Source of the DNA: a virus
Strand: one strand, 5' to 3'
IMG/VR virus record: IMGVR_UViG_3300025138_000366
Location: 1 to 23,557 of that record
DNA length: 23,557 bases
The stretch's first letter is position 1, and every line of letters begins with the position of its first letter. The notes under the pieces are model-generated. The model searched no databases and had not been told where the DNA came from. It was given only the letters and a program-made list of their open reading frames with translations. This document shows positions 6,148 through 23,413 of this stretch, piece after piece. The position numbers and the translations under genes are program-made.

Positions 6148-7209
6148 TTATGCAGCGTTGTAACGTGCTGTCACCAATGCTTGTGGGCGTAAAATCTTAC
6201 GTCCGTAAAGGTGCATACCACGTACGATGTCTGCAAATGAGTCAGGATCTCTGTAGTTCTCAACTTTAGAGACTTGCTCTGCAGTTGCTACAGCTTCTTC
6301 TTGACCTGCTAGGATGATACCGAAGTTGTCATCTTGTGCAGTTACACCAGAAGTTCCTGGTCCAGTACCGTCTGTAGGTAGGTTGTTTGAAACATAGACT
6401 TTAAAGCCGTGAATGTTTCCTGCAACCAAGCCATTCTGTAGACCGCCTCCACCGAAGTCTGAATTTAAAAGACGTGAGTCTTCATCTTTCAACATTTCCA
6501 TGAAGATTGGATCAACAACCAAGTATCGTCCACGTGAGTCCACAGTTCCTGTGTCTAACTGACGTGCCATTCTTGCAATAAGTTGCAATGGCGAAGCTGA
6601 GTTGGTAGCTTTGGTTGCAGCACCTGGTAGTCTAGGCACTAGTGGAATGGAGTCACCAGTTGTAGAACTTGAAGCTGAAGTTGTGATGTTGTTCATGTCA
6701 GACATGTCTAACTGGTTCACCTTCAAAAATTCACCGTTGATCTCACTCCCTGTTGGGTGCTGTGCAGTACCTGATACAGTAGTTGCATACTGACCATTGG
6801 CAGGGTTAGTACCTGTCATGTACATTAGAATGTCAGCATCTATTGAGTCAGCCATCTTATATGCTGCTCTGTCTGCAGCTAAAGATACGAAGTCAACATG
6901 TGAGAACTGCTCTTCAATGTCATCCATTTTAAAAGCAAAATAGTTAGCTTTGTCAATGGTTAACTGAAAGTCAGTGTCAGCTAGTTTCTCTACAGTTATA
7001 CCTGTGTGACGCTGTAATGCGTTTACAGTTACATCTGGTTCTTTTTGGATGCGTACAACATCCCCTTGATTTGCAATGTCACCAAAGTATGAATTGTTAG
7101 TGATTGCGCTTACAACAGACGCTTTGCGTAATGCAATTTGTGCCTGTTTTGAGTACATAATGGGGCTAAAATTATTAGTAAAACCCCCACCTGCGGTTCC
7201 TATAGCCAT
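6148..7209 (-). CDS. Major capsid protein
   Basis: A 353-residue protein, MAIGTAGGGFTNNFSPIMYS. Key segments are QIALRKASVVSAITNNSYFG, VVRIQKEPDVTVNALQRHTG, ADSIDADILMYMTG and, near the end, EQVSKVENYRDPDSFADIVR, GMHLYGRKILRPQALVTARY. This is the layout of a phage coat protein of presumed HK97 fold: an N-terminal arm, a strand-rich middle and a closing LYGxKxLRPxALV segment. It lies directly after the scaffold gene, as usual. It has the best translation signal of the block (AAGGAG seven bases before ATG) and a 227-bp leader with a promoter-like sequence, fitting a very highly expressed protein. Confidence is high by content and position. Confidence 0.88.
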   Translation of the reverse strand: MAIGTAGGGFTNNFSPIMYSKQAQIALRKASVVSAITNNSYFGDIANQGDVVRIQKEPDVTVNALQRHTGITVEKLADTDFQLTIDKANYFAFKMDDIEEQFSHVDFVSLAADRAAYKMADSIDADILMYMTGTNPANGQYATTVSGTAQHPTGSEINGEFLKVNQLDMSDMNNITTSASSSTTGDSIPLVPRLPGAATKATNSASPLQLIARMARQLDTGTVDSRGRYLVVDPIFMEMLKDEDSRLLNSDFGGGGLQNGLVAGNIHGFKVYVSNNLPTDGTGPGTSGVTAQDDNFGIILAGQEEAVATAEQVSKVENYRDPDSFADIVRGMHLYGRKILRPQALVTARYNAA

Positions 7210-7436: not shown

Positions 7437-8408
7437 CTACTTTCTTGACATATCATAAATAAAGTTTCCATTACGTTGAGCATCTAGTATTTCTTCTTGA
7501 CGCTTCTCGTATTCTTTCATAGACATGTTAGCTACTTCAGACTCGCGAACCATTTTAGCTGACTCGTCAGGCTCTGGTGCGGCTGCACTTTTTGTCTTAA
7601 CTGAAGATGCTGCTGCTTTCTCATTAGGTTTAGCTTTCTTCTTATTAGTAATACCATTGTCTACTTTATACAAATCTATTACACGTGATACAGACTTTGC
7701 ATCATCTACGTTTTCATACAAAGCATCTTGTACCCACTTAGGTTGTTCCTTTGCCCAGTTATGAAACGTATCGTCTTGACGTATCTCTATAAAGTCAGGA
7801 TGCATCTTAACAAGTTCTGCTTCAGCTTTATCACGGTGTGCATTTTGTCGCATCTCTTCTAGTTCAGCCATACGAGCTTCTATATCTTTAGCTGCACTCT
7901 TAGACTTCTTATCAGCTATAGTTTCTATAATAGACGCTACATCAGGATACTCTTTAGTCCAAGCTTCTAGCTCTTCATCAGTCTTAGGCAATACAAGCTG
8001 TTTATTAGCAGCCTTAGATAGTTGAGATTCTAATGCTTCTATCTTAGAAGTAAACTCTTTCTCTTTGTCCTGTTGATGTCTGCGTAGATCACCATAACGT
8101 TTCTTGAAGTTCTTCTCTTCAGCACTTAGCTCATCATCTTCTTGTGCTTTGGCTTCTGGTTTCTCTTCTTGTTTGGTATCACTCTTTGTCTGAACTGGTT
8201 CAGCTTTAGGCTCTTCGCCATTGGGTTCAGCTTCAGTGGTTTCTTCTTCATCAGTTATACCTGCTGCTGCCCTAGCTTTGTTTTTCATTTCTTCTAGTTC
8301 AGCTTCATCTTTCTTGATACGTTCTTCATTAGTAAGGTATCCACTTCTACCTATCACTACTTTTGGAATAGGTGGTTTTACCATTGGGTTGGTTTCGGTA
8401 TCGGCCAT
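7437..8408 (-). CDS. Capsid scaffolding protein
   Basis: A 323-residue, highly charged and helical protein. After an N-terminal patch (MADTETNPMVKPPIPKVVIG, then LTNEERIKKDEAELEEMKNK) comes an acidic disordered stretch (about 50-95), a coiled coil around LSAEEKNFKKRYGDLRRHQQ, a central helical core (KTDEELEAWTKEYPDVASII), and a basic C-terminal third ending RNGNFIYDMSRK. Acid-rich start, coiled coil and basic coat-binding tail are usual for scaffold proteins, and the gene sits directly before the capsid gene. No protease domain is seen here or nearby, so the scaffold may leave the shell intact. Start ATG at 8408 has an AAGGA Shine-Dalgarno. Confidence 0.85.
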   Translation of the reverse strand: MADTETNPMVKPPIPKVVIGRSGYLTNEERIKKDEAELEEMKNKARAAAGITDEEETTEAEPNGEEPKAEPVQTKSDTKQEEKPEAKAQEDDELSAEEKNFKKRYGDLRRHQQDKEKEFTSKIEALESQLSKAANKQLVLPKTDEELEAWTKEYPDVASIIETIADKKSKSAAKDIEARMAELEEMRQNAHRDKAEAELVKMHPDFIEIRQDDTFHNWAKEQPKWVQDALYENVDDAKSVSRVIDLYKVDNGITNKKKAKPNEKAAASSVKTKSAAAPEPDESAKMVRESEVANMSMKEYEKRQEEILDAQRNGNFIYDMSRK

Positions 8409-8456: not shown

Positions 8457-11400
8457 TTATTTGGATTTCTTCTTCTTCTTTTTCCTCATCATGCCGCCTT
8501 TGTAAACACCTGTTGAGTCATCATCATAATCACCTGCTGCAACATTATCATATATAGGTGAGGGTTTAGCTGCAGGTGTAGGTGGCCTGGAGATAGGTGA
8601 ATCATTATTGTCATTTGAAGACGGGGGTGGTAAGAAAGAATCTGGATCATTTTTAACAGCCTCAAGGAAGTCATCATTACCTACAGGTTTAACAGTTTTA
8701 CTTGGGGAACCAAAAGCTGCACTTGCAGCGTCTGCAGATGCTTGTTCAATTTGTGTTTTAAGCTCATTACTAAGCCCATCATCTACTCCCGGAGTTGTAG
8801 TTTGACTTGCTGTTTGATCATTTGGTGTGTAAACACTTCCTGCTCCCGGATTGTAAGGTTGACCACCTGCCATAGTAGGATCAGCAAAATCTGTATCAGG
8901 TGTTACTGGTTTAGGTATTTGACCTACAGTCTTTTCAAAGTCTCTTCCTAGTATCTTATCTAGTAGTGTAGGTGTTTCTCTTTCTGTAATCTCAAGTAAG
9001 TTTTGATAGCGCATCTTATCTACATTTGAAGTTTCATTAGATGTTAATCTACGTTCTATCTCTCTCTTTACTTGTCTTGTTTGATTCCACATTGCAAACT
9101 TAACTGCTGCACCCATTAAAGGATTTAGTAATCCCAAACCTGATGCTATTACATCACCTTTCAAATCACCTTGACTATTTACCATCTCAGTTAATTCTTC
9201 AAGACTTAGCTCTTTATAGTTAACAGGATCTGGTGTTGGCATATCCATACCTCCTCCAGAATCAGAACCACCGCTACCGCCTATTGCAGGGGTAGGAGCT
9301 ACAGCTACACCTTCACCCACTGGATAGTAACCAGCAGGTATCTCCATTTGTGCTACACCATCTATAAAGGTAATAAATATTCTATGACCTTCATCGTTCA
9401 TGTACTCACGCATCTCAAGTACAGGACCACCTGTACCACCTTCTACTTGATCAACATAGGCGTTTTCCATGTCAAAGCCACCCTTTTGATCAGGGTCATA
9501 GAAGGGTTGATTGAACTGGGCTTCACCACCTATGAGGTTTGTATCTTCTACAGGTGTTGGTAATGATAGTTCCTGTGTTGCCATACCACCTTCATCAAAG
9601 CCTAGACCTTCCATAAGTCTTTTGTAGAATGGTTGATCATAGTAACGTACTGAGTTATTTACAGGCTCTTGGCCTCCTGTGTATGTACTTGCTACCTGAC
9701 CTGCTCTTAGTGATTCATTCTTTGTTGCTGATGCTGGTGATCCATATTTACGTGCGGCACGTTCCATTGGATTACCACTAAAGCCAAAGTCAAACCTAGA
9801 CTGACGATCAGGCTCATCATCACCATCAAATACATCTCTTAGTCTGTTTCGTATAGCTTCAAATCTATTCTTTGGTTTATCTTTTCTGGCCTGAACTCTA
9901 GCAGATATAGCTGCTGGGGAGTTGTCTTTTTTATCATCATTACTAAAAGCTGAAGCCATTATCTCTGCGTGTGTCTTACGTGGGGCAGTACGTTTAGGGG
10001 TTTTTATGTCTCTATTCTTTGCTACATCTTTGTAGTCAGCCATAGATCTTCCACCCCTGTTCATTTGTACAGGTGCTTCATCATCCATTACTTCTAAGTC
10101 TAACTCAGAAAGTTCTATGTCCATTCCCATGTCATCATTCATAGGTTCACCACCCATGCGTCCGTCTTGTGACATCTCTTGGTAACCCATCTTAGCTTCA
10201 GCACGTAGGTCTTCAAATAGTTTTACACCATGAAAGTTTACTACGTCAGCAGCTACAACTATCTCACCTTCACTTAGGTTAGCTGGTATATCATCTCGTA
10301 CATTCTCTGCTGTAGAACCCATTGGTATCTCATTACCTGACACAGGATCTATACCTATTGTGTTATCTGGCACATCACCAAAATTCATATTCATCTGTTC
10401 TTCTAAAGCCATACCGCCCTCACTAAATCCTTGTGCATTTTTAGTAGCTGTTATTATCTTGCCTTTTCTGGTAACGTTACCCTCACCAAATACCTGTTCT
10501 ATTAAAGGTACATATGCCTGAGTCTTTTCATTTCTTTGATAACCTTTGGTTGTAATTTTTCCTTCACCCTTACCCGTACCTTCGTACACAGAAAAGTGTG
10601 CTTTACCATTTGGTTTTATTGCATTCTCTGCCTGTATAGCAATGTCAATAATGTTTTTATCTTCTTGTATAACATTTAATACATTGTGAGACATAGCCAT
10701 ATCAGCCTGTCCATCTTTTACAGAATCAACAACTGCTGCATTATGTTCTGGTGTTCTATTAAATGGATCGTAAACTTTTACAGTTGCACCTTCTTCAGCA
10801 GCATCTTCTACTAAGTTATCAAAGCGCCCACCACCAATGTCAACAATAACATCACCATCTTTTATCTCACCACGTTTTTTTAATTCGTTATAACCTGCAG
10901 GTTTCTTACTAACATTTATAGATGTATCTGCTGAGTCATATAGTTGTTCTGGGTAGGACCATACATCTGTTGGTGCGGCTGACTTATTAGCTGCTTTCTT
11001 ATAATTATTAAAAGACTTACGTATAGCTTCTTCTTTTACAGCCCAATCTACTAAGGATCTATCTAGTCCATTTTCAAGTATATATTGAAAAGTTTCATTG
11101 TCTGGTAACTGTTCAAAGGCTCCAGATATTTTGTCATCGTAAAGCATATCGTCCATCATACTTGGACCCATCTTATTTAGTATAGCTTTTTGATCTGATA
11201 TACTTTCTGCTGCTTCTTCTACTGTATCAAATCTAACGGTAGCTTCTACAGCATCTTTATAGTCATCAAGACTTACAACACCCTTATCTGATGTTTTTAA
11301 TTTATATTTTAATGCTTCTGTTATTGCAGGTATTCTTGACTCAATATTATCCTGTACTTTCTTTTCTGCAGCTTCTACAGCTTTTGCACCGCCACCTGCT

Positions 11401-11873
11401 TCCAAATAACTTTTTTGTACGTTAGCTAGTTCTGCAACTTCTGAGTCTTTAAGATTTAATTTACCCCAATCAAAATCATCCCTATACATATCGTCTAGTT
11501 TAAAAGACTCTGATTTTTTAGGCTTTATCCTAATGTTACCACCCATCATACCTAAAGCATTAGGGTCAACCTCTATACGTTTTATCATATCTGCTGCGTT
11601 ACGTATACCTTTAGCAGCAACATCTCCAATACCTGGAACTGCACCTACTAGAGCAGCACCACCTAGTACAGCAACAAAGCGGTAGTCAGGGTCTTCTTTC
11701 TGAAGCTCGTCATAGATCTCTTTTGCTGCCATAGCATCTCCTATTATAGGAGTCATCTCAGCTACAGTCTTAGCAGCATCTTTGAATGTAAGGTCAGTGT
11801 TTATGTCTGTTACAGGTTCTACACCATAAGACTTTACAAACTCAAGACGTTCTTCCTCAGTTGGTTGGTCCAT
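8457..11873 (-). CDS. Large multidomain virion-associated protein with embedded methyltransferase-like domain
   Basis: A 1138-residue protein. Residues 1-95 hold a hydrophobic, glycine-rich segment (FVAVLGGAALVGAVPGIGD, 66-84) that could interact with membranes. Residues 335-478 look like a class I SAM-dependent methyltransferase: VIVDIGGGRF (342-351) as motif I, YDPFN (368-372) with the acidic residue, ADMAMSHNVLNVI (390-402). Residues 481-578 carry SEGGMAL and DDIPANLSEGEIVVAADVVN plus FEDLRAEAKMGYQEM, a module I recall from marine phage structural proteins. Then follow a basic disordered part (605-700), a second EGGM (761), a helical part (885-985) and a lysine tail GGMMRKKKKKKSK. The gene lies between portal and scaffold, where ejected or internal head proteins are often coded. 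Polyvalent proteins injected with phage DNA are a known class with such mixtures; assignment to it is inference. The target of methylation is unknown. Confidence 0.7.
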   Translation of the reverse strand: MDQPTEEERLEFVKSYGVEPVTDINTDLTFKDAAKTVAEMTPIIGDAMAAKEIYDELQKEDPDYRFVAVLGGAALVGAVPGIGDVAAKGIRNAADMIKRIEVDPNALGMMGGNIRIKPKKSESFKLDDMYRDDFDWGKLNLKDSEVAELANVQKSYLEAGGGAKAVEAAEKKVQDNIESRIPAITEALKYKLKTSDKGVVSLDDYKDAVEATVRFDTVEEAAESISDQKAILNKMGPSMMDDMLYDDKISGAFEQLPDNETFQYILENGLDRSLVDWAVKEEAIRKSFNNYKKAANKSAAPTDVWSYPEQLYDSADTSINVSKKPAGYNELKKRGEIKDGDVIVDIGGGRFDNLVEDAAEEGATVKVYDPFNRTPEHNAAVVDSVKDGQADMAMSHNVLNVIQEDKNIIDIAIQAENAIKPNGKAHFSVYEGTGKGEGKITTKGYQRNEKTQAYVPLIEQVFGEGNVTRKGKIITATKNAQGFSEGGMALEEQMNMNFGDVPDNTIGIDPVSGNEIPMGSTAENVRDDIPANLSEGEIVVAADVVNFHGVKLFEDLRAEAKMGYQEMSQDGRMGGEPMNDDMGMDIELSELDLEVMDDEAPVQMNRGGRSMADYKDVAKNRDIKTPKRTAPRKTHAEIMASAFSNDDKKDNSPAAISARVQARKDKPKNRFEAIRNRLRDVFDGDDEPDRQSRFDFGFSGNPMERAARKYGSPASATKNESLRAGQVASTYTGGQEPVNNSVRYYDQPFYKRLMEGLGFDEGGMATQELSLPTPVEDTNLIGGEAQFNQPFYDPDQKGGFDMENAYVDQVEGGTGGPVLEMREYMNDEGHRIFITFIDGVAQMEIPAGYYPVGEGVAVAPTPAIGGSGGSDSGGGMDMPTPDPVNYKELSLEELTEMVNSQGDLKGDVIASGLGLLNPLMGAAVKFAMWNQTRQVKREIERRLTSNETSNVDKMRYQNLLEITERETPTLLDKILGRDFEKTVGQIPKPVTPDTDFADPTMAGGQPYNPGAGSVYTPNDQTASQTTTPGVDDGLSNELKTQIEQASADAASAAFGSPSKTVKPVGNDDFLEAVKNDPDSFLPPPSSNDNNDSPISRPPTPAAKPSPIYDNVAAGDYDDDSTGVYKGGMMRKKKKKKSK

Positions 11874-12054
11874 TTACCGTTTCCCTCAGTAACTTTAGTT
11901 TTCTTAGTACGTCTATTGCACCCTGCTGTCTGTGCATAACATGCGGTTCATTGGCTGTTTCCAACGCACGTTGTCTTATGTTTATTATTTCATCTATGTG
12001 TTTTTGAAACTGCTCGTAGCATTCTTTATCATTAACCAACTGCTTGAGGTGCAT
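11857..12054 (-). CDS. Small helical protein following the portal gene
   Basis: A 65-residue protein, MHLKQLVNDKECYEQFQKHI, then DEIINIRQRALETANEPHVM and HRQQGAIDVLRKLKLLRETV. It is all-helical with two amphipathic helices. The gene overlaps the portal end by 23 bases and the next start by 17. Short helical proteins of this sort follow the portal gene in many phages with this gene order; I recognise the pattern but know no experimental role. A portal- or head-completion partner is a guess from position. Confidence 0.7.
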   Translation of the reverse strand: MHLKQLVNDKECYEQFQKHIDEIINIRQRALETANEPHVMHRQQGAIDVLRKLKLLRETVNGPTN

Positions 12055-14143
12055 TACCTGTAAATCCTTGCTCTTCTGGTAGTGGTGCTGTACCCATACC
12101 TATCTGTGAACCTCCACCCCCAGTAGTATCAGCTACACTTTGTGGGCCTTGACCTTCAGGACCAGCTACGCCTTGCTCTGGTGTTGGCGCTGGTGCTTGA
12201 AAACCTTTTAAGATCTCAGCTTGTATAGCTGCATCAGCAATAGAGTTAGTCACCTTATCAGGATCTAAGTCCATGCTCTTAGCAATCTCACGTATAATAT
12301 AATCCATCTTAGCAAATGGTGCAAGTACTGGATTCTGTGCTACTTGTAAGAACTGCATCAAACGTTGACTACGTACTTCGTTAGCCATCAAGCTTTCTGT
12401 ACCTGACGCATGTACTTCTAAGTCACCCTTTATATTCTCATCAAAGTCAAACTGCATGTTGAATGCAAAGAATGCTTTACCTAATGGTCTAATTAAATAG
12501 TCATCAACATTCTTAACAACGGTACGGATACTACCGTTAGCAGCAGACATAAGCATAGAGATTCCAGAAGCAGTACGCCCAACTCCTTGAACTCCTGTTT
12601 GACCATGTGCAAAAGATGGGAACCCAGTAGACTCATCAGCTAGTACCCTCGCTTTATCAAATAGTTGCATGTTCTCTTGTGCCACGTTTGGAAACTTTGT
12701 ACCAAAGATAGCTTGTCCTGGAGCGCCACCCTGTCTCCTGAATATCTTTCCAGGATAAACAGATAGGTCTTGGCCGGGAACTAAGTTAGTCTCATCTACT
12801 TCTATGATTAGATTACCAGACATTGCAGCATTGTCAATAGCCATTCTCATAAAGCCATTCATCAATGTCTGTGTATCATCCATGTTCTCAGCAATACCAA
12901 CGCCAAAGAAGGAGTATGGGTTATGCTCATATGGCACAGCGTAGTAGGGTATACGTGTAGGCTTGAATGGGTTTAGTACAAACCGTAGTACTTCACCGTT
13001 GCTTATCCATACGTTACAGTTAACTTCATCTAGGTCACTAAGCTCACTAGGTATATCTACACCATGCTCTTCTAATAACTTAGTATCAACAAAACCCCAG
13101 AACTCTAATACCTCCCAACGCTCTGATGTTGGTTGTGTATCATCATCTTCCATAGTCATTTCCCAGTACTTCTGTGTATAGTCTGGTCCTGAGTCTATAG
13201 CGTTCTGTATACTATCATCCATAAAGTATGGACGTGTCTTTAGTTTGCGTAGTTGTGTACGTGACATCTTGTGTCTTTGTACAACATACTCAGCCTCATT
13301 CATATCTTTAGCTTCTGGGTCAGGATAGAAATCCCATATAGAAACGTGGTCACATTCTGGAACAGTTCTTACAATAGGATCATACTCACCATCTTCGTTC
13401 CAGTTAGGATACTCTTTGTCTACAGCAAACGCACCTTTCATAACACCTGTACCAAGTAGTGCCATTTCAAATGCCATACTTCTTAGGTGTGTAGTAGCTC
13501 CGCTTTCCTGTAGCTGATCATGGATCTTCTTCTCCATCTTCTTAGCTGAAACCATAGCAGGATGAAACGTAACACTAGTAGCTGTAGTACCATCACCCTC
13601 TATAATCTTCTCAGACACAGGTGCTAGTTTTTCTTCCATGCCACCTAGTCTAGCCTGTAGATCCATAAGTGTTTCACCAGGTTTTAACTCTGTGTCACCA
13701 TCTATTAGATAGGGCTTTGGCGCTGGTGAACTCATAGCTGCACTAATAGCAGCCTGTCCTGCTTCTACTCTAGGGTCTATGTTTATATGTACAGACTCAG
13801 CAACACCGTCAGGTAGAACAGTAGGATTTACAGATAAAGGAAACTTATTGTTACCAAATAGTACATCTACTATCTGTCCATATGCTGCTAGTGTTTTTGT
13901 TTTAGTAACCTTTACAAAGATACGAGACTTCTCTGCGTCAGTAAATTGTACATCACTACCATACAAACCTCTGTAGTTTCTATATGCTTTAAGCCATCTC
14001 TGCTCATCAGCGTACCTAGAGTCTTCAGACCTTTTGTATCGGTCTTTTATAAAGCCAATTACACTGTCCTTCTCTTTAAAGATTTTATCATCAGCTTTCT
14101 CTGCTGCAACGACATCATCCGTTTCAAACATTTCTTCAGCCAT
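12032..14143 (-). CDS. Portal protein
   Basis: A 703-residue protein. Recognisable parts are KDRYKRSEDSRYADEQRWLK, YRNYRGLYG near the start; SIWDFYPDPEAKDMNEAEYV, a hallmark of portals of this type; PYSFFGVGIAENMDDTQTLM, NGFMRMAIDNAAMSGNLIIE in the core; GVQGVGRTASGISMLMSAAN and VDDYLIRPLGKAFFAFNMQF in the stem and wing part; and a Pro/Gln/Gly-rich C-terminal tail. The length is close to that of P22-type portals. It would form the dodecameric ring through which DNA enters and leaves. It follows the terminase, separated only by a 68-codon gene, and has a good Shine-Dalgarno (AAGGAAG). Subfamily not resolved. Confidence 0.9.
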   Translation of the reverse strand: MAEEMFETDDVVAAEKADDKIFKEKDSVIGFIKDRYKRSEDSRYADEQRWLKAYRNYRGLYGSDVQFTDAEKSRIFVKVTKTKTLAAYGQIVDVLFGNNKFPLSVNPTVLPDGVAESVHINIDPRVEAGQAAISAAMSSPAPKPYLIDGDTELKPGETLMDLQARLGGMEEKLAPVSEKIIEGDGTTATSVTFHPAMVSAKKMEKKIHDQLQESGATTHLRSMAFEMALLGTGVMKGAFAVDKEYPNWNEDGEYDPIVRTVPECDHVSIWDFYPDPEAKDMNEAEYVVQRHKMSRTQLRKLKTRPYFMDDSIQNAIDSGPDYTQKYWEMTMEDDDTQPTSERWEVLEFWGFVDTKLLEEHGVDIPSELSDLDEVNCNVWISNGEVLRFVLNPFKPTRIPYYAVPYEHNPYSFFGVGIAENMDDTQTLMNGFMRMAIDNAAMSGNLIIEVDETNLVPGQDLSVYPGKIFRRQGGAPGQAIFGTKFPNVAQENMQLFDKARVLADESTGFPSFAHGQTGVQGVGRTASGISMLMSAANGSIRTVVKNVDDYLIRPLGKAFFAFNMQFDFDENIKGDLEVHASGTESLMANEVRSQRLMQFLQVAQNPVLAPFAKMDYIIREIAKSMDLDPDKVTNSIADAAIQAEILKGFQAPAPTPEQGVAGPEGQGPQSVADTTGGGGSQIGMGTAPLPEEQGFTGNAPQAVG

Positions 14144-14342: not shown

Positions 14343-15923
14343 TTAATACCCAAACGTTGAATCACTGGCTTGAAAACCAGATCGTTGTTTTGCAGGATTG
14401 TAATCCCATATGCTGCTACGTGGTCTTGTCATTATACCATACCTTAACGCATCATACAAGTGATCTTCTGATTTTGTGTCTACATCTTCTGGATTCTTTT
14501 TGTCCAGTGGGATGCTTGGTATCTGAGCTATTGTGTTAGTGCAGTTATTCATAAATACTAACATAGGTTTTTCTATAAAGTCATCTACCTTCAAACGCCT
14601 ATGTATCTCGTTTTTTCCTGCGATACGTGACCCTCTTGAACGGTCTGAAGGACGCCAACGGCAACCCTTCATGTTCATCTGTTCAGCTAATGATGGCCCA
14701 GTATCGCCTCGGTTGTGCCATAAAGAACTATCAAGCACACCGTATCTCATACCTCCGTCTTTAGATTCTGCATCTATTATCATATCAGCTAAGTCTGTAG
14801 CTGTTACTTTAGATACATACATTTCCCTATATACTATAAGCTGCTCATCAGGAGCAACAGTGAACCACAGAACCCCAGTATAAGAACCATAACCATAGTC
14901 GCAAGCCCTAAAGCGTACCCAACTGTCAGGGATTTCAAAGTGTTCGATAACGTGGGCAGTTCTGTCAAATTCGGGAAATGCTGCCCCTTCGTTGATATCC
15001 CAGTTTCCTTCAAGGAGTTGCTTTCTCTGATGCTCTGGTAGTGATAGGAGCATGGCCTCATAGTCACCCTCTTCAGCGAGGTATGGGTTATCGAAGAGAG
15101 ACGCAGGTATAAACCTACGCTTGAATAAAGGCTGACCTTCCTTGCTGTGTCCTTTAGGGAATGTAATTGTTTTACTTGTTTCAATGTCTGTAGCCCAAAA
15201 GTCTTTACCTGCAGGTGCAGGATCTATAAACATCTTCTTAACCCAAGAATGTCCAGCACCACCTGGGTTTGTTGTAGCTCTCATGTACAGACCTAGTTCT
15301 CTGCCGTGTGCGCTACGAAGACGTGATCTCATATAATCCCAAGCGTAAGATGTAGGCCATTGAGTAAGTTCGTCAAACCCAATCCAGTTAAATGCCTGTC
15401 CTTGATACCTAGTAACGTCTGTATCTTTGTCCAGATAAGACATCCATAGTCTTCCACCTCTAGGAGAGATCCACTGTGACTTACGCTCTGACCATTTGAT
15501 TCCTGGTATGGCACGTGGGTATAACTCCTGTGATTTCTGTATTAGTTCCCTTAGTTCTTCTGTTGTGTGTCGTACAAGGAGTCCAGAGAAGTGTGGATCG
15601 TTTAGGCCGTGTAATGGATCTGCCAGCATAGCATAAGACTTACCGCCACCTGCTGCCCCTCCATACAACACCTCTCTCTCAGATGAACTCAAGAAAGATG
15701 TTTGTGGACCTTCATTAGGTTTGAATACAACTTGCTGTGCTTCATCTACGTCATACTCAGGTGCTACTACCTGCGCTGGAGTCAGGGGGGTTGTGACTTC
15801 CGCTGGCTTCTGAATATGCTCCGACTCCTTGTGTTTCGAGCTTCTCGATTTGCGAGAGCGTTTCTTGGAGCCACTTGGCAAGCTTACGTTTAATTGCAGA
15901 TGCTTTTCTACGTCTTTGCTCAA
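14343..15923 (-). CDS. terL: Terminase large subunit
   Basis: A 526-residue packaging motor with both halves intact. ATPase: Walker A GGAAGGGKS (88-96), Walker B FNWIGFDE (178-185), coupling motif RATTNPGG (215-222). Nuclease: acidic residues in CDYGYG (D342), GVLDSS (D398) and SEDHLYDALRYG (D487, D491), as in the RNase H-like terminase nuclease. It cuts concatemers and drives DNA into the prohead through the portal. The start is uncertain: the frame opens with TTG at 15923, and its first 55 basic, low-complexity residues overlap the preceding gene by 167 bases. No ATG occurs before Walker A, so the start must be TTG, GTG or another rare codon within that overlap. Confidence 0.92.
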   Translation of the reverse strand: MSKDVEKHLQLNVSLPSGSKKRSRKSRSSKHKESEHIQKPAEVTTPLTPAQVVAPEYDVDEAQQVVFKPNEGPQTSFLSSSEREVLYGGAAGGGKSYAMLADPLHGLNDPHFSGLLVRHTTEELRELIQKSQELYPRAIPGIKWSERKSQWISPRGGRLWMSYLDKDTDVTRYQGQAFNWIGFDELTQWPTSYAWDYMRSRLRSAHGRELGLYMRATTNPGGAGHSWVKKMFIDPAPAGKDFWATDIETSKTITFPKGHSKEGQPLFKRRFIPASLFDNPYLAEEGDYEAMLLSLPEHQRKQLLEGNWDINEGAAFPEFDRTAHVIEHFEIPDSWVRFRACDYGYGSYTGVLWFTVAPDEQLIVYREMYVSKVTATDLADMIIDAESKDGGMRYGVLDSSLWHNRGDTGPSLAEQMNMKGCRWRPSDRSRGSRIAGKNEIHRRLKVDDFIEKPMLVFMNNCTNTIAQIPSIPLDKKNPEDVDTKSEDHLYDALRYGIMTRPRSSIWDYNPAKQRSGFQASDSTFGY

Positions 15924-16794: not shown

Positions 16795-17004
16795 CTATTT
16801 CTTCATCTTTTTCATTGGACGTTCAGCAGGGTTAGATGCTCCACACATCATTGCACCTTTAGCGTAGCCCATCTTCTTAGCCATACCGCCATTCATCATG
16901 CCCATCTTTTTATTAGCCATGCCACCATACATGTAGCCCATCTTCTTAGCTACGGCTGGTGCTTCTTTCTTTAGTGCTTTCATACCGTCATTCATTTTCT
17001 TCAT
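16795..17004 (-). CDS. Met/Lys/Gly-rich repetitive small protein
   Basis: A 69-residue protein from ATG at 17004, which shares four bases with the preceding stop (ATGA). It contains 15 methionines and 16 lysines. Repeats of the type KKMGYxxGGMA occur at about 20-30, 32-42 and 43-53: AKKMGYMYGGMA, NKKMGMMNGGMA, KKMGYAKGAMM. One cysteine (54) follows, and the protein ends RPMKKMKK. Similar GGM/K repeat proteins are frequent in marine phages; function unknown. The positive charge suits binding of DNA, RNA or an acidic protein surface. The GGM motif also occurs three times in the 1138-aa protein, including just before its lysine tail. A short inverted repeat (16782-16799) spans the stop. Confidence 0.65.
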   Translation of the reverse strand: MKKMNDGMKALKKEAPAVAKKMGYMYGGMANKKMGMMNGGMAKKMGYAKGAMMCGASNPAERPMKKMKK

Positions 17005-17261
17005 GTTCGTTTTCTCCCTGATGCTGTTACTGACCATTTAACTTTCTTTGGCCCTGTTTTCTTTGATGCTTCTGCTTTACTTATTCTACCTGCTACCTTT
17101 GCTGGTCTACAAGCTGGGTATGGTCTACTGCTGTCCTTAACACTTTTTCTTCCACACTCCTTGCCTGTCTTTACGTCACGCCAGTCTTCCTTGAACCATT
17201 GAGTTAGTCCACCTTCACCAAAGGATCTACGACTTTGTAGTACGTGTCTTGACTTGTGCAA
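17001..17261 (-). CDS. Small basic Cys-containing protein, DUF5872-like
   Basis: The start is read as TTG at 17261 because AAGGAGG stands five bases before it; an upstream GTG at 17291 has no such site. The 86-residue product contains FGEGGLTQWFKEDWRDVKTG followed by KECGRKS, RPYPACRPAKVAGRISKAEA and TGPKKVKWSVTASGRK. The GLTQWFKEDWxDVxTGxxCGR...YPACRP pattern recurs in phages and some large viruses and, as far as I recall, is annotated as DUF5872. The two cysteines could bind metal in an oligomer. It overlaps the upstream gene by 35 bases. Function unknown. Confidence 0.65.
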   Translation of the reverse strand: MHKSRHVLQSRRSFGEGGLTQWFKEDWRDVKTGKECGRKSVKDSSRPYPACRPAKVAGRISKAEASKKTGPKKVKWSVTASGRKRT

Positions 17262-17409
17262 CTGATCCTCCTTTACTGTAAGTACCCCCACGCTTTTTGT
17301 AGGTCTTAACTAACCAAGCACTTCCATATGCGCTGGGCCACTTAAACTTCTTCTTAGCTTCTGACTTTACTCTAGAGTACAAAGCTGCATTCTTAGGTTT
17401 ATTAGCCAT
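17227..17409 (-). CDS. Small lysine-rich protein
   Basis: A 60-residue protein, MANKPKNAALYSRVKSEAKK, then KFKWPSAYGSAWLVKTYKKR and GGTYSKGGSVAQVKTRTTKS. The segment LYxxVKxEAKKKFKxxPSAYxxxWLVKxYKKRGGxY is a conserved short motif found in phages and in some large DNA viruses; no activity is known to me. The start overlaps the preceding stop as TAATG. Charge and size match the other four proteins of this cluster, suggesting a shared function such as nucleic acid binding. Confidence 0.7.
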   Translation of the reverse strand: MANKPKNAALYSRVKSEAKKKFKWPSAYGSAWLVKTYKKRGGTYSKGGSVAQVKTRTTKS

Positions 17410-17579
17410 TACTTCTTAGCTTTCTTCTTTGCTGTTGCACTCAGGTCTTTGAAGTGAACAACTTGTTTGCTATTCTTACCATGTGTTGCACCAGAATGCA
17501 ACTGTCCGTTTGGCATCTTGTGTGTACCACCTTTGTGTTCAGTGCCATCTTTGAAGTAATGCTTTTGAGCTTTTGCCAT
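17409..17579 (-). CDS. Tiny His/Lys-rich phage protein
   Basis: A 56-residue protein, MAKAQKHYFKDGTEHKGGTH, KMPNGQLHSGATHGKNSKQV, ending KKKAKK. The start shares a base with the preceding stop (TAATG) and its own stop does the same with the next start, so it lies snugly inside the operon. The block HKMPNGxxHSGATHxxxSK is one I recognise from small phage proteins of unknown role. Six histidines in 56 residues, spaced as H..H...H, might bind metal. The frame is short but its coupling on both sides and motif make it a real gene in my view. Confidence 0.65.
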   Translation of the reverse strand: MAKAQKHYFKDGTEHKGGTHKMPNGQLHSGATHGKNSKQVVHFKDLSATAKKKAKK

Positions 17580-17848
17580 TATGTCCTCTTAGATTTTGTA
17601 CCAGCACACTTCCACTTCTTACGAGATAGACGTAGTGGGCTGTTTGGATTAGCTGCTGCCTTTGGATGTTTCTTCATCTGCCCAGCACTTCTTGCACAAT
17701 ACGAATCACCTTTACCTGTACCTGGACGTATACGTTTGCCACCGTCCTTGGCTTTACCTGCCTGACCGTAGCTTACCTTTACCTTACGCCCTGTCTTAGG
17801 GTTAGTCGTTGTCTTGGCAAACATCTTGCCTTTACGTGGAGTAGCCAT
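17579..17848 (-). CDS. Small basic Cys-containing protein, DUF6321-like
   Basis: An 89-residue protein, MATPRKGKMFAKTTTNPKTG, then RKVKVSYGQAGKAKDGGKRI, RPGTGKGDSYCARSAGQMKK and NPNSPLRLSRKKWKCAGTKS. The combination PGTxKGDSYCARSxG...NPNSPxxLSRKKWKC is a conserved phage motif which I recall as DUF6321. The two conserved cysteines lie in GDSYCARS and KWKCAG. Strong positive charge suggests nucleic acid contact; nothing enzymatic is seen. It follows the membrane coiled-coil gene closely and leads the cluster of five small basic proteins. Confidence 0.65.
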   Translation of the reverse strand: MATPRKGKMFAKTTTNPKTGRKVKVSYGQAGKAKDGGKRIRPGTGKGDSYCARSAGQMKKHPKAAANPNSPLRLSRKKWKCAGTKSKRT

Positions 17849-21770: not shown

Positions 21771-22508
21771 ATGACTTATAAACTATTAGGTGTTGGTACT
21801 AATGCCAAGACAATCAAGGGTGATGGCTCTGAATACTTGACAGCTATCTTGTATATGACACCCTACAAAGTGATGGTGGATGGCAAGTCTTTTAATAGTT
21901 GTGCGATGGCTGAACAAGCAAGCTGTATTGATGCGTGTCTATATACAGCAGGACGTGGCAAGTTTAGCAATGTACAGTCAGCTAGACAACGCAAGGCTCA
22001 ATGGTTTTACAAGGATAGAGATAGCTTTATGGATCAACTGATTGACGACATAGATAGGTTTCAAATCTATTGCATGAAGCGTGACATTCAACCTTGTGTG
22101 AGACTGAACGGCACTACTGACATTCGTTGGGAGTTGATCAAAGTTGATGGACAAAACGTATTCGAGTTGTTCCCTAATGTGCAGTTCTATGACTACACCA
22201 AGATTGCTAATCGTAAGTGTAAGGACATACCCAACTATCACTTGACATGGAGTTACTCCAACGCAAATGCAGATTATGCCAAGCTACTCGACAAAGCATT
22301 AGAGCAAGGTATGAATGCGGCAGTAGTGTTCAGATCTAACTTTATCCAAGTCAAACCTAAAGCTTGGCATAATTGGAAGGGATACCCTGTCATTGATGGC
22401 GATCAAGACGATCTAAGATTTCTTGACCCAAGGGGTGGACACATTGTTGCACTCTATGCTAAAGGTGAAGCTAAGAAGGATCAAACAGGATTTGTACAGG
22501 AGGTGTAA
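21771..22508 (+). CDS. GP88-family phage protein
   Basis: A 245-residue protein with AGGAGG six bases before ATG. NAKTIKGDGSEYLTAILYMT (11-30), CAMAEQASCIDACLYTAGRG (44-63), VQSARQRKAQWFYKDRDSFM (68-87), VRLNGTTDIRWE (about 109-120) and DGDQDDLRFLDPRGGHIVAL near the end match the gene product 88 family of phages, whose function is unknown. Three cysteines, C44-x7-C52-x3-C56, form a possible metal-binding cluster. Alternating predicted strands and helices give a barrel-like rhythm. It is the first gene of the rightward operon, with the next ATG directly after its stop. Family call is fairly firm by motif; activity is open. Confidence 0.75.
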   Translation: MTYKLLGVGTNAKTIKGDGSEYLTAILYMTPYKVMVDGKSFNSCAMAEQASCIDACLYTAGRGKFSNVQSARQRKAQWFYKDRDSFMDQLIDDIDRFQIYCMKRDIQPCVRLNGTTDIRWELIKVDGQNVFELFPNVQFYDYTKIANRKCKDIPNYHLTWSYSNANADYAKLLDKALEQGMNAAVVFRSNFIQVKPKAWHNWKGYPVIDGDQDDLRFLDPRGGHIVALYAKGEAKKDQTGFVQEV

Positions 22509-22509
22509 C

Positions 22510-22695
22510 ATGAAAACTGTAATAGAAAAAAAGATAACAACTACTAAGGTTTATCAAGTGCGAACCTTGCCTATAAGGAAGGGTAGTGACTACAGGTTTA
22601 GATTATTTGTTGACGGATATGCTAAAACCCTGTACAAAAATATTGAGGAAGCTGAAAAACATTTGGAGGTATTATCTTATGGAAGATACAAATAA
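22510..22695 (+). CDS. Small phage protein of unknown function
   Basis: A 61-residue protein from ATG at 22510. The strong AGGAGG upstream lies within the end of the GP88 gene, and fixes this start rather than the longer frame from 22423. MKTVIEKKITTTKVYQVRTL, then PIRKGSDYRFRLFVDGYAKT, LYKNIEEAEKHLEVLSYGRY. It has a short beta-beta-beta-alpha look: strands with a FRLFVDGYAKTLYKN turn, then an EEAEKHLEVL helix. No family recognised. It overlaps the next gene by 17 bases. Confidence 0.65.
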   Translation: MKTVIEKKITTTKVYQVRTLPIRKGSDYRFRLFVDGYAKTLYKNIEEAEKHLEVLSYGRYK

Positions 22696-23413
22696 AATTG
22701 TAATCAGTCTTTATGACTACACTGGTGAAGCACTCAAGCCTTGGGCAGAGGCAGGGTATACTTGCCATGCTTTTGACATACAGCATGATGAGGCAGGTTG
22801 GGTAGATCGTTTTGATGGTGGTGGTTCTATTCGCTATCACAAATCTGACTTACATAACATTGCAAACCTTGACGCAATCTATGACAGTCTATCAGGCAAG
22901 GAAGTCACCTTTGCTATGGCATTCCCTGTCTGTACTGACATGGCGGTATCAGGTGCGGCACACTTCAAGCGTAAGCGTGAACGTGACCCATTGTTCCAAC
23001 GCAAGGCGGCGAACTATGCCATATGGTGTGCTGAATTATTCCAAGCATTGGGTTGTCCATACTTTATAGAAAACCCTGTTAGTGTACTATCAACTCTATG
23101 GCGCAAACCTAATTACAAGTTTCACCCATATGAGTATGGTGGATACATACCTGACGATCAAGCGGAACATCCCAAGTGGCCTGACTACATTGCGCCAATG
23201 GATGCATACCCTAAGAAAACTTGTCTATGGACTGGTGGTGGCTTCATTATGCCTACCATAGCACCAGTAGAACCAGAGACAGGCCATAGTAGACAGCACC
23301 TCAAGCTTGGTGGTAAGTCTATGAAGACTAAGAACATACGCAGTGCAACACCTCGTGGCTTTGCACAAGCGGTGTACATGACAATAACAACTCAATACAA
23401 ACCCAATCTATAG
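22679..23413 (+). CDS. C5-cytosine-methyltransferase-like protein
   Basis: A 244-residue protein from ATG at 22679, chosen because GGAGG lies nine bases upstream; the open frame begins at 22586. IVISLYDYTGEALKPWAEAG (7-26) resembles motif I and AFDIQ (31-35) motif II of C5 methyltransferases. FPVCTDMAVSGAAHF (82-96) stands where the catalytic Pro-Cys is expected, and YFIENPVSVLST (128-139) equals the ENV motif. RSATPRGFAQAVY (221-233) resembles the closing motif. Many phages carry such short enzymes in which PPCTxxxxSG replaces the classic motif IV; here it is P-V-C-T, still with Cys85. It probably modifies phage or host DNA, but the base and site are unknown, and loss of activity is possible. 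Confidence 0.7.
   Translation: MEDTNKIVISLYDYTGEALKPWAEAGYTCHAFDIQHDEAGWVDRFDGGGSIRYHKSDLHNIANLDAIYDSLSGKEVTFAMAFPVCTDMAVSGAAHFKRKRERDPLFQRKAANYAIWCAELFQALGCPYFIENPVSVLSTLWRKPNYKFHPYEYGGYIPDDQAEHPKWPDYIAPMDAYPKKTCLWTGGGFIMPTIAPVEPETGHSRQHLKLGGKSMKTKNIRSATPRGFAQAVYMTITTQYKPNL

Follow-up and report, generated by a model that had tools for sequence, protein, structure and literature searches.

What does a methyltransferase-like domain do inside a large protein that is encoded among the head genes of a phage, and is it a fixed part of that protein? The question is raised by an ORF of 1138 aa with an ATG start, located at 8457..11873 on the minus strand of the window, by which we mean the whole stretch of 23,557 nucleotides analysed here. 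From the ORF list and a comparison of loci, its product, called protein X in the following, is a modular protein and presumably virion cargo or an ejection protein. A sequence-only reading of the same DNA had placed a 1138-aa product between portal and scaffold, leaving the strand unstated, and the ORF is indeed found there. The phages concerned are of the HMO-2011 type, which is reported to be prevalent in the ocean.

The head-gene locus and the constant parts of protein X

The window is a virus fragment from an HMO-2011-type podovirus. Among isolated phages, the portal of Roseobacter phage CRP-207 is nearest to the window portal with 83.6% identity, and the HMO-2011 portal shares 67.5%. On the minus strand, the terminase large subunit (terL, 14343..15923; Pfam and PHROG matches) and the portal protein (12032..14143; phrog_332/1216, SU10_portal) are followed by a 65-aa ORF of conserved position (11857..12054), which fills the interval between portal and X and overlaps X by 17 bases. 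Downstream of X lie the presumed scaffold protein (7437..8408), named from its position since its family phrog_13678 is unnamed, and the major capsid protein (6148..7209; Phage_capsid_4, phrog_267). We compared this arrangement with related loci, denoted by L-numbers, those from IMG/VR being fragments. The order terL, portal, ORF of ~65 aa, X, scaffold and capsid recurs in nearly all loci that encode the core of X and have their flanks present. Phages CHOED and Slicky01 lack X at the corresponding locus in an otherwise equal gene order, and X is therefore accessory. In L203, L085, L086 and L136, X is divided over two genes, one ORF encoding the core and the other the cassette or leader. Elsewhere in the window, positions 16795-17848 (minus strand) hold a group of small, strongly basic ORFs, one of which has Met/Gly/Lys-rich repeats (MGYMYGGMANKKMGMMNGGM).

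Three parts of X are constant among relatives. The leader, residues 1-117 (11523..11873, minus strand), was delimited by conservation and contains a hydrophobic helical hairpin (TPIIGDAMAAKEIYDELQKE...VAVLGGAALVGAVPGIGD), and its end, the conserved GGN[IV]R[IL]KPK, is the left junction of the cassette. It contains the most hydrophobic stretch of the protein, the membrane-helix-like residues 67-85 (11619..11675, minus strand; mean KD 1.75), which agrees with the hydrophobic N-terminal stretch reported in the sequence-only reading. A second hydrophobic stretch lies in the C-terminal part at residues 908-926 (9096..9152, minus strand). AlphaFold2 gave an unreliable model for residues 1-303 (pLDDT 36 from 19 mostly partial rows), so the membrane hairpin is proposed from hydropathy and conservation. 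The core module begins with FSEGGMALEEQ and reads FSEGGMALEEQ...DPVSGNEIP..VRDDIPA.LSEGE.VV.ADVV...GVKLFEDLR; it forms the right junction of the cassette, and relatives of it are encoded in at least ~600 IMG/VR stretches. Its conservation had been recognised before with an extent of 481-578; the comparison retains the conservation and moves the borders to residues 483-611 (10041..10427, minus strand). The Lys-rich C-terminal tail KGGMMRKKKKKKSK (8460..8501, minus strand), also noted before, recurs among relatives: at least six Lys or Arg are found among the final 14 residues in 76 of 117 relatives and in 5 of 782 control ORFs. A direct sequence search of the whole protein against the PDB gave zero matches, NCBIfam gave none, and no known ejection-protein or MuF domain was detected with Pfam, PHROG or PDB. 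Identification of X as a MuF protein was rejected, as the MuF domain is missing in Pfam and PHROG searches. In the literature searched, no description of gene X in HMO-2011-type phages was found.

The methyltransferase domain MT1

Residues 304-480 (10434..10964, minus strand) are the class I SAM-dependent methyltransferase domain MT1, delimited by profile, model and structure matches. The sequence motifs VIVDIGGGRF (342-351), YDPF (368-371) and SHNVLNVI (395-402) are exactly where the sequence-only reading put them, and the landmarks are motif I D345-IGGG, D369 after beta-2 and the invariant N397-x-LNVI. With 19.5-22.4 bits against PF13489, the window copy by itself stays below the curated Pfam cut-off of 27 bits. 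A search of IMG/VR with a profile of the domain yielded 149 confirmed relatives, the best 80 of which were kept. Among 40 non-redundant relatives, 39 match PF13489 (best 3.1e-10), and L083 (36.3 bits), L087 (32.0), L082 (30.6), L071 (29.2) and L228 (29.1) exceed the cut-off. The motif is thus not a chance match.

The structure prediction points to the same assignment. The AlphaFold2 model of MT1 (pLDDT 85.7, pTM 0.85; one alignment row, from an annotated record, was left out) has a Rossmann-like alternation of beta and alpha elements with strands and helices ordered as in small class I methyltransferases. Foldseek returned 311 PDB chains at E<=1e-3 (best E 2e-7); nearly all of the 50 matches listed are named methyltransferases, with 3e23 and 3h2b, two enzymes in complex with SAM or SAH, at the top and Trm9 and UbiG behind them. 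All 40 MT1 domains keep D-I-G-G-G and the DP that follows beta-2, N-x-LNVI is likewise invariant, and the domain is under purifying selection, with a dN/dS of 0.05-0.25 between relatives and the window copy. We conclude from model and alignment that residues 304-480 form a genuine class I methyltransferase fold, as had been proposed, with the predicted SAM site intact. The invariance of this site over 40 divergent domains together with the low dN/dS suggests that catalysis is maintained. On direct reading, neither the DNA amino-methylase motif [DNS]PP[YFW] nor the PC motif of C5-methyltransferases is present in MT1. Since the [DNS]PP[YFW] signature is absent, DNA is an unlikely substrate, and the identification of MT1 as a DNA methylase was rejected for its missing catalytic motif; DNA as one of the possible targets, as suggested earlier, has become less likely accordingly. 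NCBIfam and PHROGs hold no functional name for the family, and the searched sections of the polyvalent-protein paper (PMC5512222) do not contain it. A separate 275-aa ORF of the window (22586-23413, plus strand) matches phrog_757 'DNA methyltransferase' (2.6e-71); it is visibly unrelated to MT1 and lies near a GP88-family protein (21771-22508).

MT1 has a history of its own. Between L060 and the window, synonymous divergence is 0.24 in MT1 versus 0.66 in terL, 0.62 in the portal and 0.61 in the core; for L064, L066 and L067 it is 0.32-0.37 in MT1 versus 0.65-0.79 in portal and terL. Because it is low in the cassette alone, recent transfer of MT1 between lineages, beyond selection, is indicated. 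Outside X, MT1 occurs in proteins of 1500-3700 aa with ART-PolyVal, LPD3, InPase or FtsK_gamma domains, and also in a few MAG contigs. The ORF at 292-11535 of L077/L078 encodes 3748 aa; MT1 occupies residues 1905-2083, ART-PolyVal is weakly matched at 2342-2519, and by eye a ParB-like sequence stands just upstream of MT1. In L083:3034-8955, a 1974-aa ORF has the DNA-reading FtsK_gamma domain (3.3e-18) shortly before MT1. Phage relatives of MT1 in the BFVD (A0A8S5M7J1, A0A6J5T5D0 and A0A8S5UCF8) are 37-42% identical with TM-scores of 0.84-0.85.

An exchangeable slot between leader and core

Protein X is a mosaic of leader, exchangeable cassette, conserved core and Lys-rich tail. In near-identical phages the slot between leader and core is either empty or filled by MT1, by a second methyltransferase-like domain (MT2), by a domain resembling Phage_L5_gp82 or by yet others. 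L004 and the window are 97% identical in the portal, 97% in the leader and 98% in the core; L004 has no MT1, its junctions are sharp, and its cassette of ~250 aa is unrelated to that of the window. The leader is 92-94% identical over residues 1-122 throughout L004-L010, where the cassettes differ. Since portals that are 97% identical go with different cassettes, the cassette does not follow the structural proteins. The first half of the window cassette, module H (residues 118-303; 10965..11522, minus strand), was delimited by locus comparison and looks helical, although its AlphaFold2 model is unreliable; it is joined to other partners in L035, L036, L040-L042 and L110. In L055 the methyltransferase stands directly behind the leader and before the core with no 118-303 insert, and in L068 the order is reversed, with the core before the methyltransferase. 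Sequence comparison at these conserved junctions shows that different domains recombine into the slot. The sequence-only reading named no described example of this exact domain order: we found no paper that describes it, and relatives such as L055, with N-terminus, methyltransferase and core but no 118-303, show that it is not unique. The same reading saw the methyltransferase domain and missed the main point, that it is an exchangeable cassette.

A sample, rather than a census of nature, was drawn with the core of the window by taking its 80 best matches. Among the 72 classifiable proteins in it, the slot holds a Phage_L5_gp82-like domain in 23, other domains in 20, no cassette in 19, MT2 in 6 and MT1 in 4; only loci fetched with the core were counted, as those fetched with the methyltransferase would bias the numbers. 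MT2 is characterised by LDFGAGLGLS...YEPFP...LNVLNVVP and is also present in the isolated phage CRP-3. It occupies the same slot in L104, L105, L106, L133, L136 and CRP-3 gp36 (L239:623-4501), and has weak similarity to TIGR04096, a putative methyltransferase associated with dnd (E 0.012), and to phrog_2774. LNV[IV] is kept in both domains, and hhalign aligns them with a probability of 26% over 81 columns; with this low value a single family was rejected, and MT1 and MT2 are treated as distinct or very distant.

Other relatives of X carry further domains. The cell-wall hydrolase domain Hydrolase_2 is clear in X of CRP-2 and CRP-3 (E 1e-11 to 6e-16), with weaker matches in the relatives from phiM6 and RHph_N3_13, and CHAP/NlpC, LPD23 and ParB-like domains occur as well. 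Homologous genes pair a hydrolase with MT2 or MT1, or a ParB-like domain with MT2; X of the window has one recognised enzymatic domain only. A separate class I methyltransferase gene stands directly downstream of X in CRP-13 (gp54, L235:6246-6941) and CRP-345 (gp61, L243:7689-8228). CRP-9 has such a gene behind the coat gene. According to a published comparison, the packaging and morphogenesis modules of HMO-2011-type phages show very few insertions and deletions (PMC8528129). Gene X is a cassette-exchange hotspot within this module described as indel-poor.

Proposed role of protein X and comparison with known systems

We favour the reading that HMO-2011-type podoviruses produce X along with their head module as a modular cargo protein resembling polyvalent proteins, in which MT1 serves as an interchangeable effector. 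X is probably packaged in the virion and sent into the host with the DNA, and may act there before phage genes are expressed, as the sequence-only reading had raised; this is suggested by where the gene lies, by the fusions to murein hydrolases and by the hydrophobic hairpin. Packaging and delivery with the DNA would most simply account for a head-module gene in which cell-wall hydrolases, exchangeable enzymes and a membrane-like hairpin come together. The core and the basic tail would hold X inside the capsid, close to the portal or the DNA, and at infection X would be ejected with the genome or ahead of it. Versions with a murein hydrolase may open the cell wall, and the hairpin may help X to cross the inner membrane or to sit in it. 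The cassette enzyme would then act early inside the cell, where MT1 of the window may methylate not DNA but a protein, an RNA or a small molecule of the host. An arms race with defences or targets in the host could then be behind the turnover of cassettes. The literature searched contained no virion proteomics for X of any HMO-2011-type phage.

Rather unlikely, in our judgement, is a structural or assembly role, in which X is an internal core or portal-associated protein and the methyltransferase works late or during assembly, its substrates being, for instance, proteins of the capsid, the portal or the host, with no injection. The position of the gene among late structural genes would suit this, as would the many phages in which the core has no recognised enzyme, including HMO-2011 gp49 and 19 of the 72 sampled proteins; yet cassettes differ where portals are 97% identical, CHOED and Slicky01 lack X altogether, and murein-hydrolase fusions fit entry better than assembly. 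We give little credence to X being an ejection (pilot) protein of the usual podoviral kind, in which the swapped segments are essentially filler or adapted to the envelope and the methyltransferase fold has become non-catalytic and serves binding or is competent for unfolding. Ejection proteins are known as mosaic and variable in size and to swap enzymatic domains (PMC8954989), and some X proteins carry no cassette, but SAM-site motifs invariant over 40 divergent domains, the dN/dS of 0.05-0.25 and the persistence of MT1 in unrelated giant proteins argue against it. That MT1 is a phage DNA methyltransferase which guards the entering DNA against restriction, a role proposed for polyvalent proteins of the DarB type, is very improbable. 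DNA adenine methylases are known among polyvalent proteins, DarB is located in the P1 head (PMC5512222), and the DNA-reading FtsK_gamma domain precedes MT1 in L083, but MT1 has neither [DNS]PP[YFW] nor PC, the folds closest to it belong to methyltransferases of tRNA, quinones and small molecules, and its ~177 aa include no recognised target-recognition domain.

Beyond the cargo reading, we tentatively raise the possibility that constant leader, core and basic tail are a general delivery platform of HMO-2011-type phages, fixed in its place between portal and scaffold, which would package and inject any recombined cassette, including at least two methyltransferase-like domains, with MT1 as a non-DNA methyltransferase of the first minutes of infection. 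If so, the platform would be for phages what polymorphic toxins and effector systems are elsewhere. Provided that X is packaged, its cassettes (methyltransferases, murein hydrolases, ParB-like and LPD domains) would be ready-made early effectors with targets that can be tested singly, and its constant flanks could serve as a natural protein-delivery tag.

Direct relatives of X are HMO-2011 gp49 and the X proteins of the Roseobacter phages CRP, at the same locus and with core E-values of 1e-28 to 1e-61. HMO-2011 gp49 begins at the core module and consists of core and tail only, X of CRP-3 has Hydrolase_2, MT2 and DUF7178, and X of CRP-2 has Hydrolase_2. The BFVD relatives of MT1 share its fold and either stand alone or form part of other phage proteins not encoded at the X locus; labels of theirs such as NodS and leucine-rich repeat protein are database names, and the functions are putative. 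Similar to X, the MuF polymorphic toxins of temperate phages are portal-adjacent and combine a constant head-associated part with an exchangeable effector (PMC5576092). X differs in having no MuF domain and no recognised toxin or immunity gene, and its cassette is usually N-terminal of the core, whereas the MuF effector is C-terminal. Podoviral ejection proteins such as T7 gp14/gp15/gp16 are, like X, large and mosaic, some with murein hydrolases and putative membrane segments (PMC8954989). X has no Pfam, PHROG or PDB match to those of T7 or P22 and no detectable sequence relation, and unlike T7-type proteins it has its gene between portal and scaffold and may be missing (CHOED, Slicky01). Polyvalent proteins, as presented by Iyer et al. 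2017 (PMC5512222), are multidomain, encoded near portal or terminase genes and equipped with exchangeable enzymes, and the same holds for X. The link to them drawn in the sequence-only reading has gained ground, with MT1 relatives adjoining ART-PolyVal, InPase and LPD3 and X relatives carrying wall hydrolases, LPD23 and ParB-like domains. In contrast to polyvalent proteins, which usually have several enzymatic domains, X of the window has one recognised, is smaller, and keeps a constant core, a basic tail and a fixed locus. The methylases described in that paper are DarB-like adenine methyltransferases that carry NPP(Y/F) and, in nearly every case, a fused helicase, whereas MT1 has neither motif nor helicase. 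Of the known systems, polyvalent and podoviral ejection proteins come closest, and we infer that X functionally resembles both.
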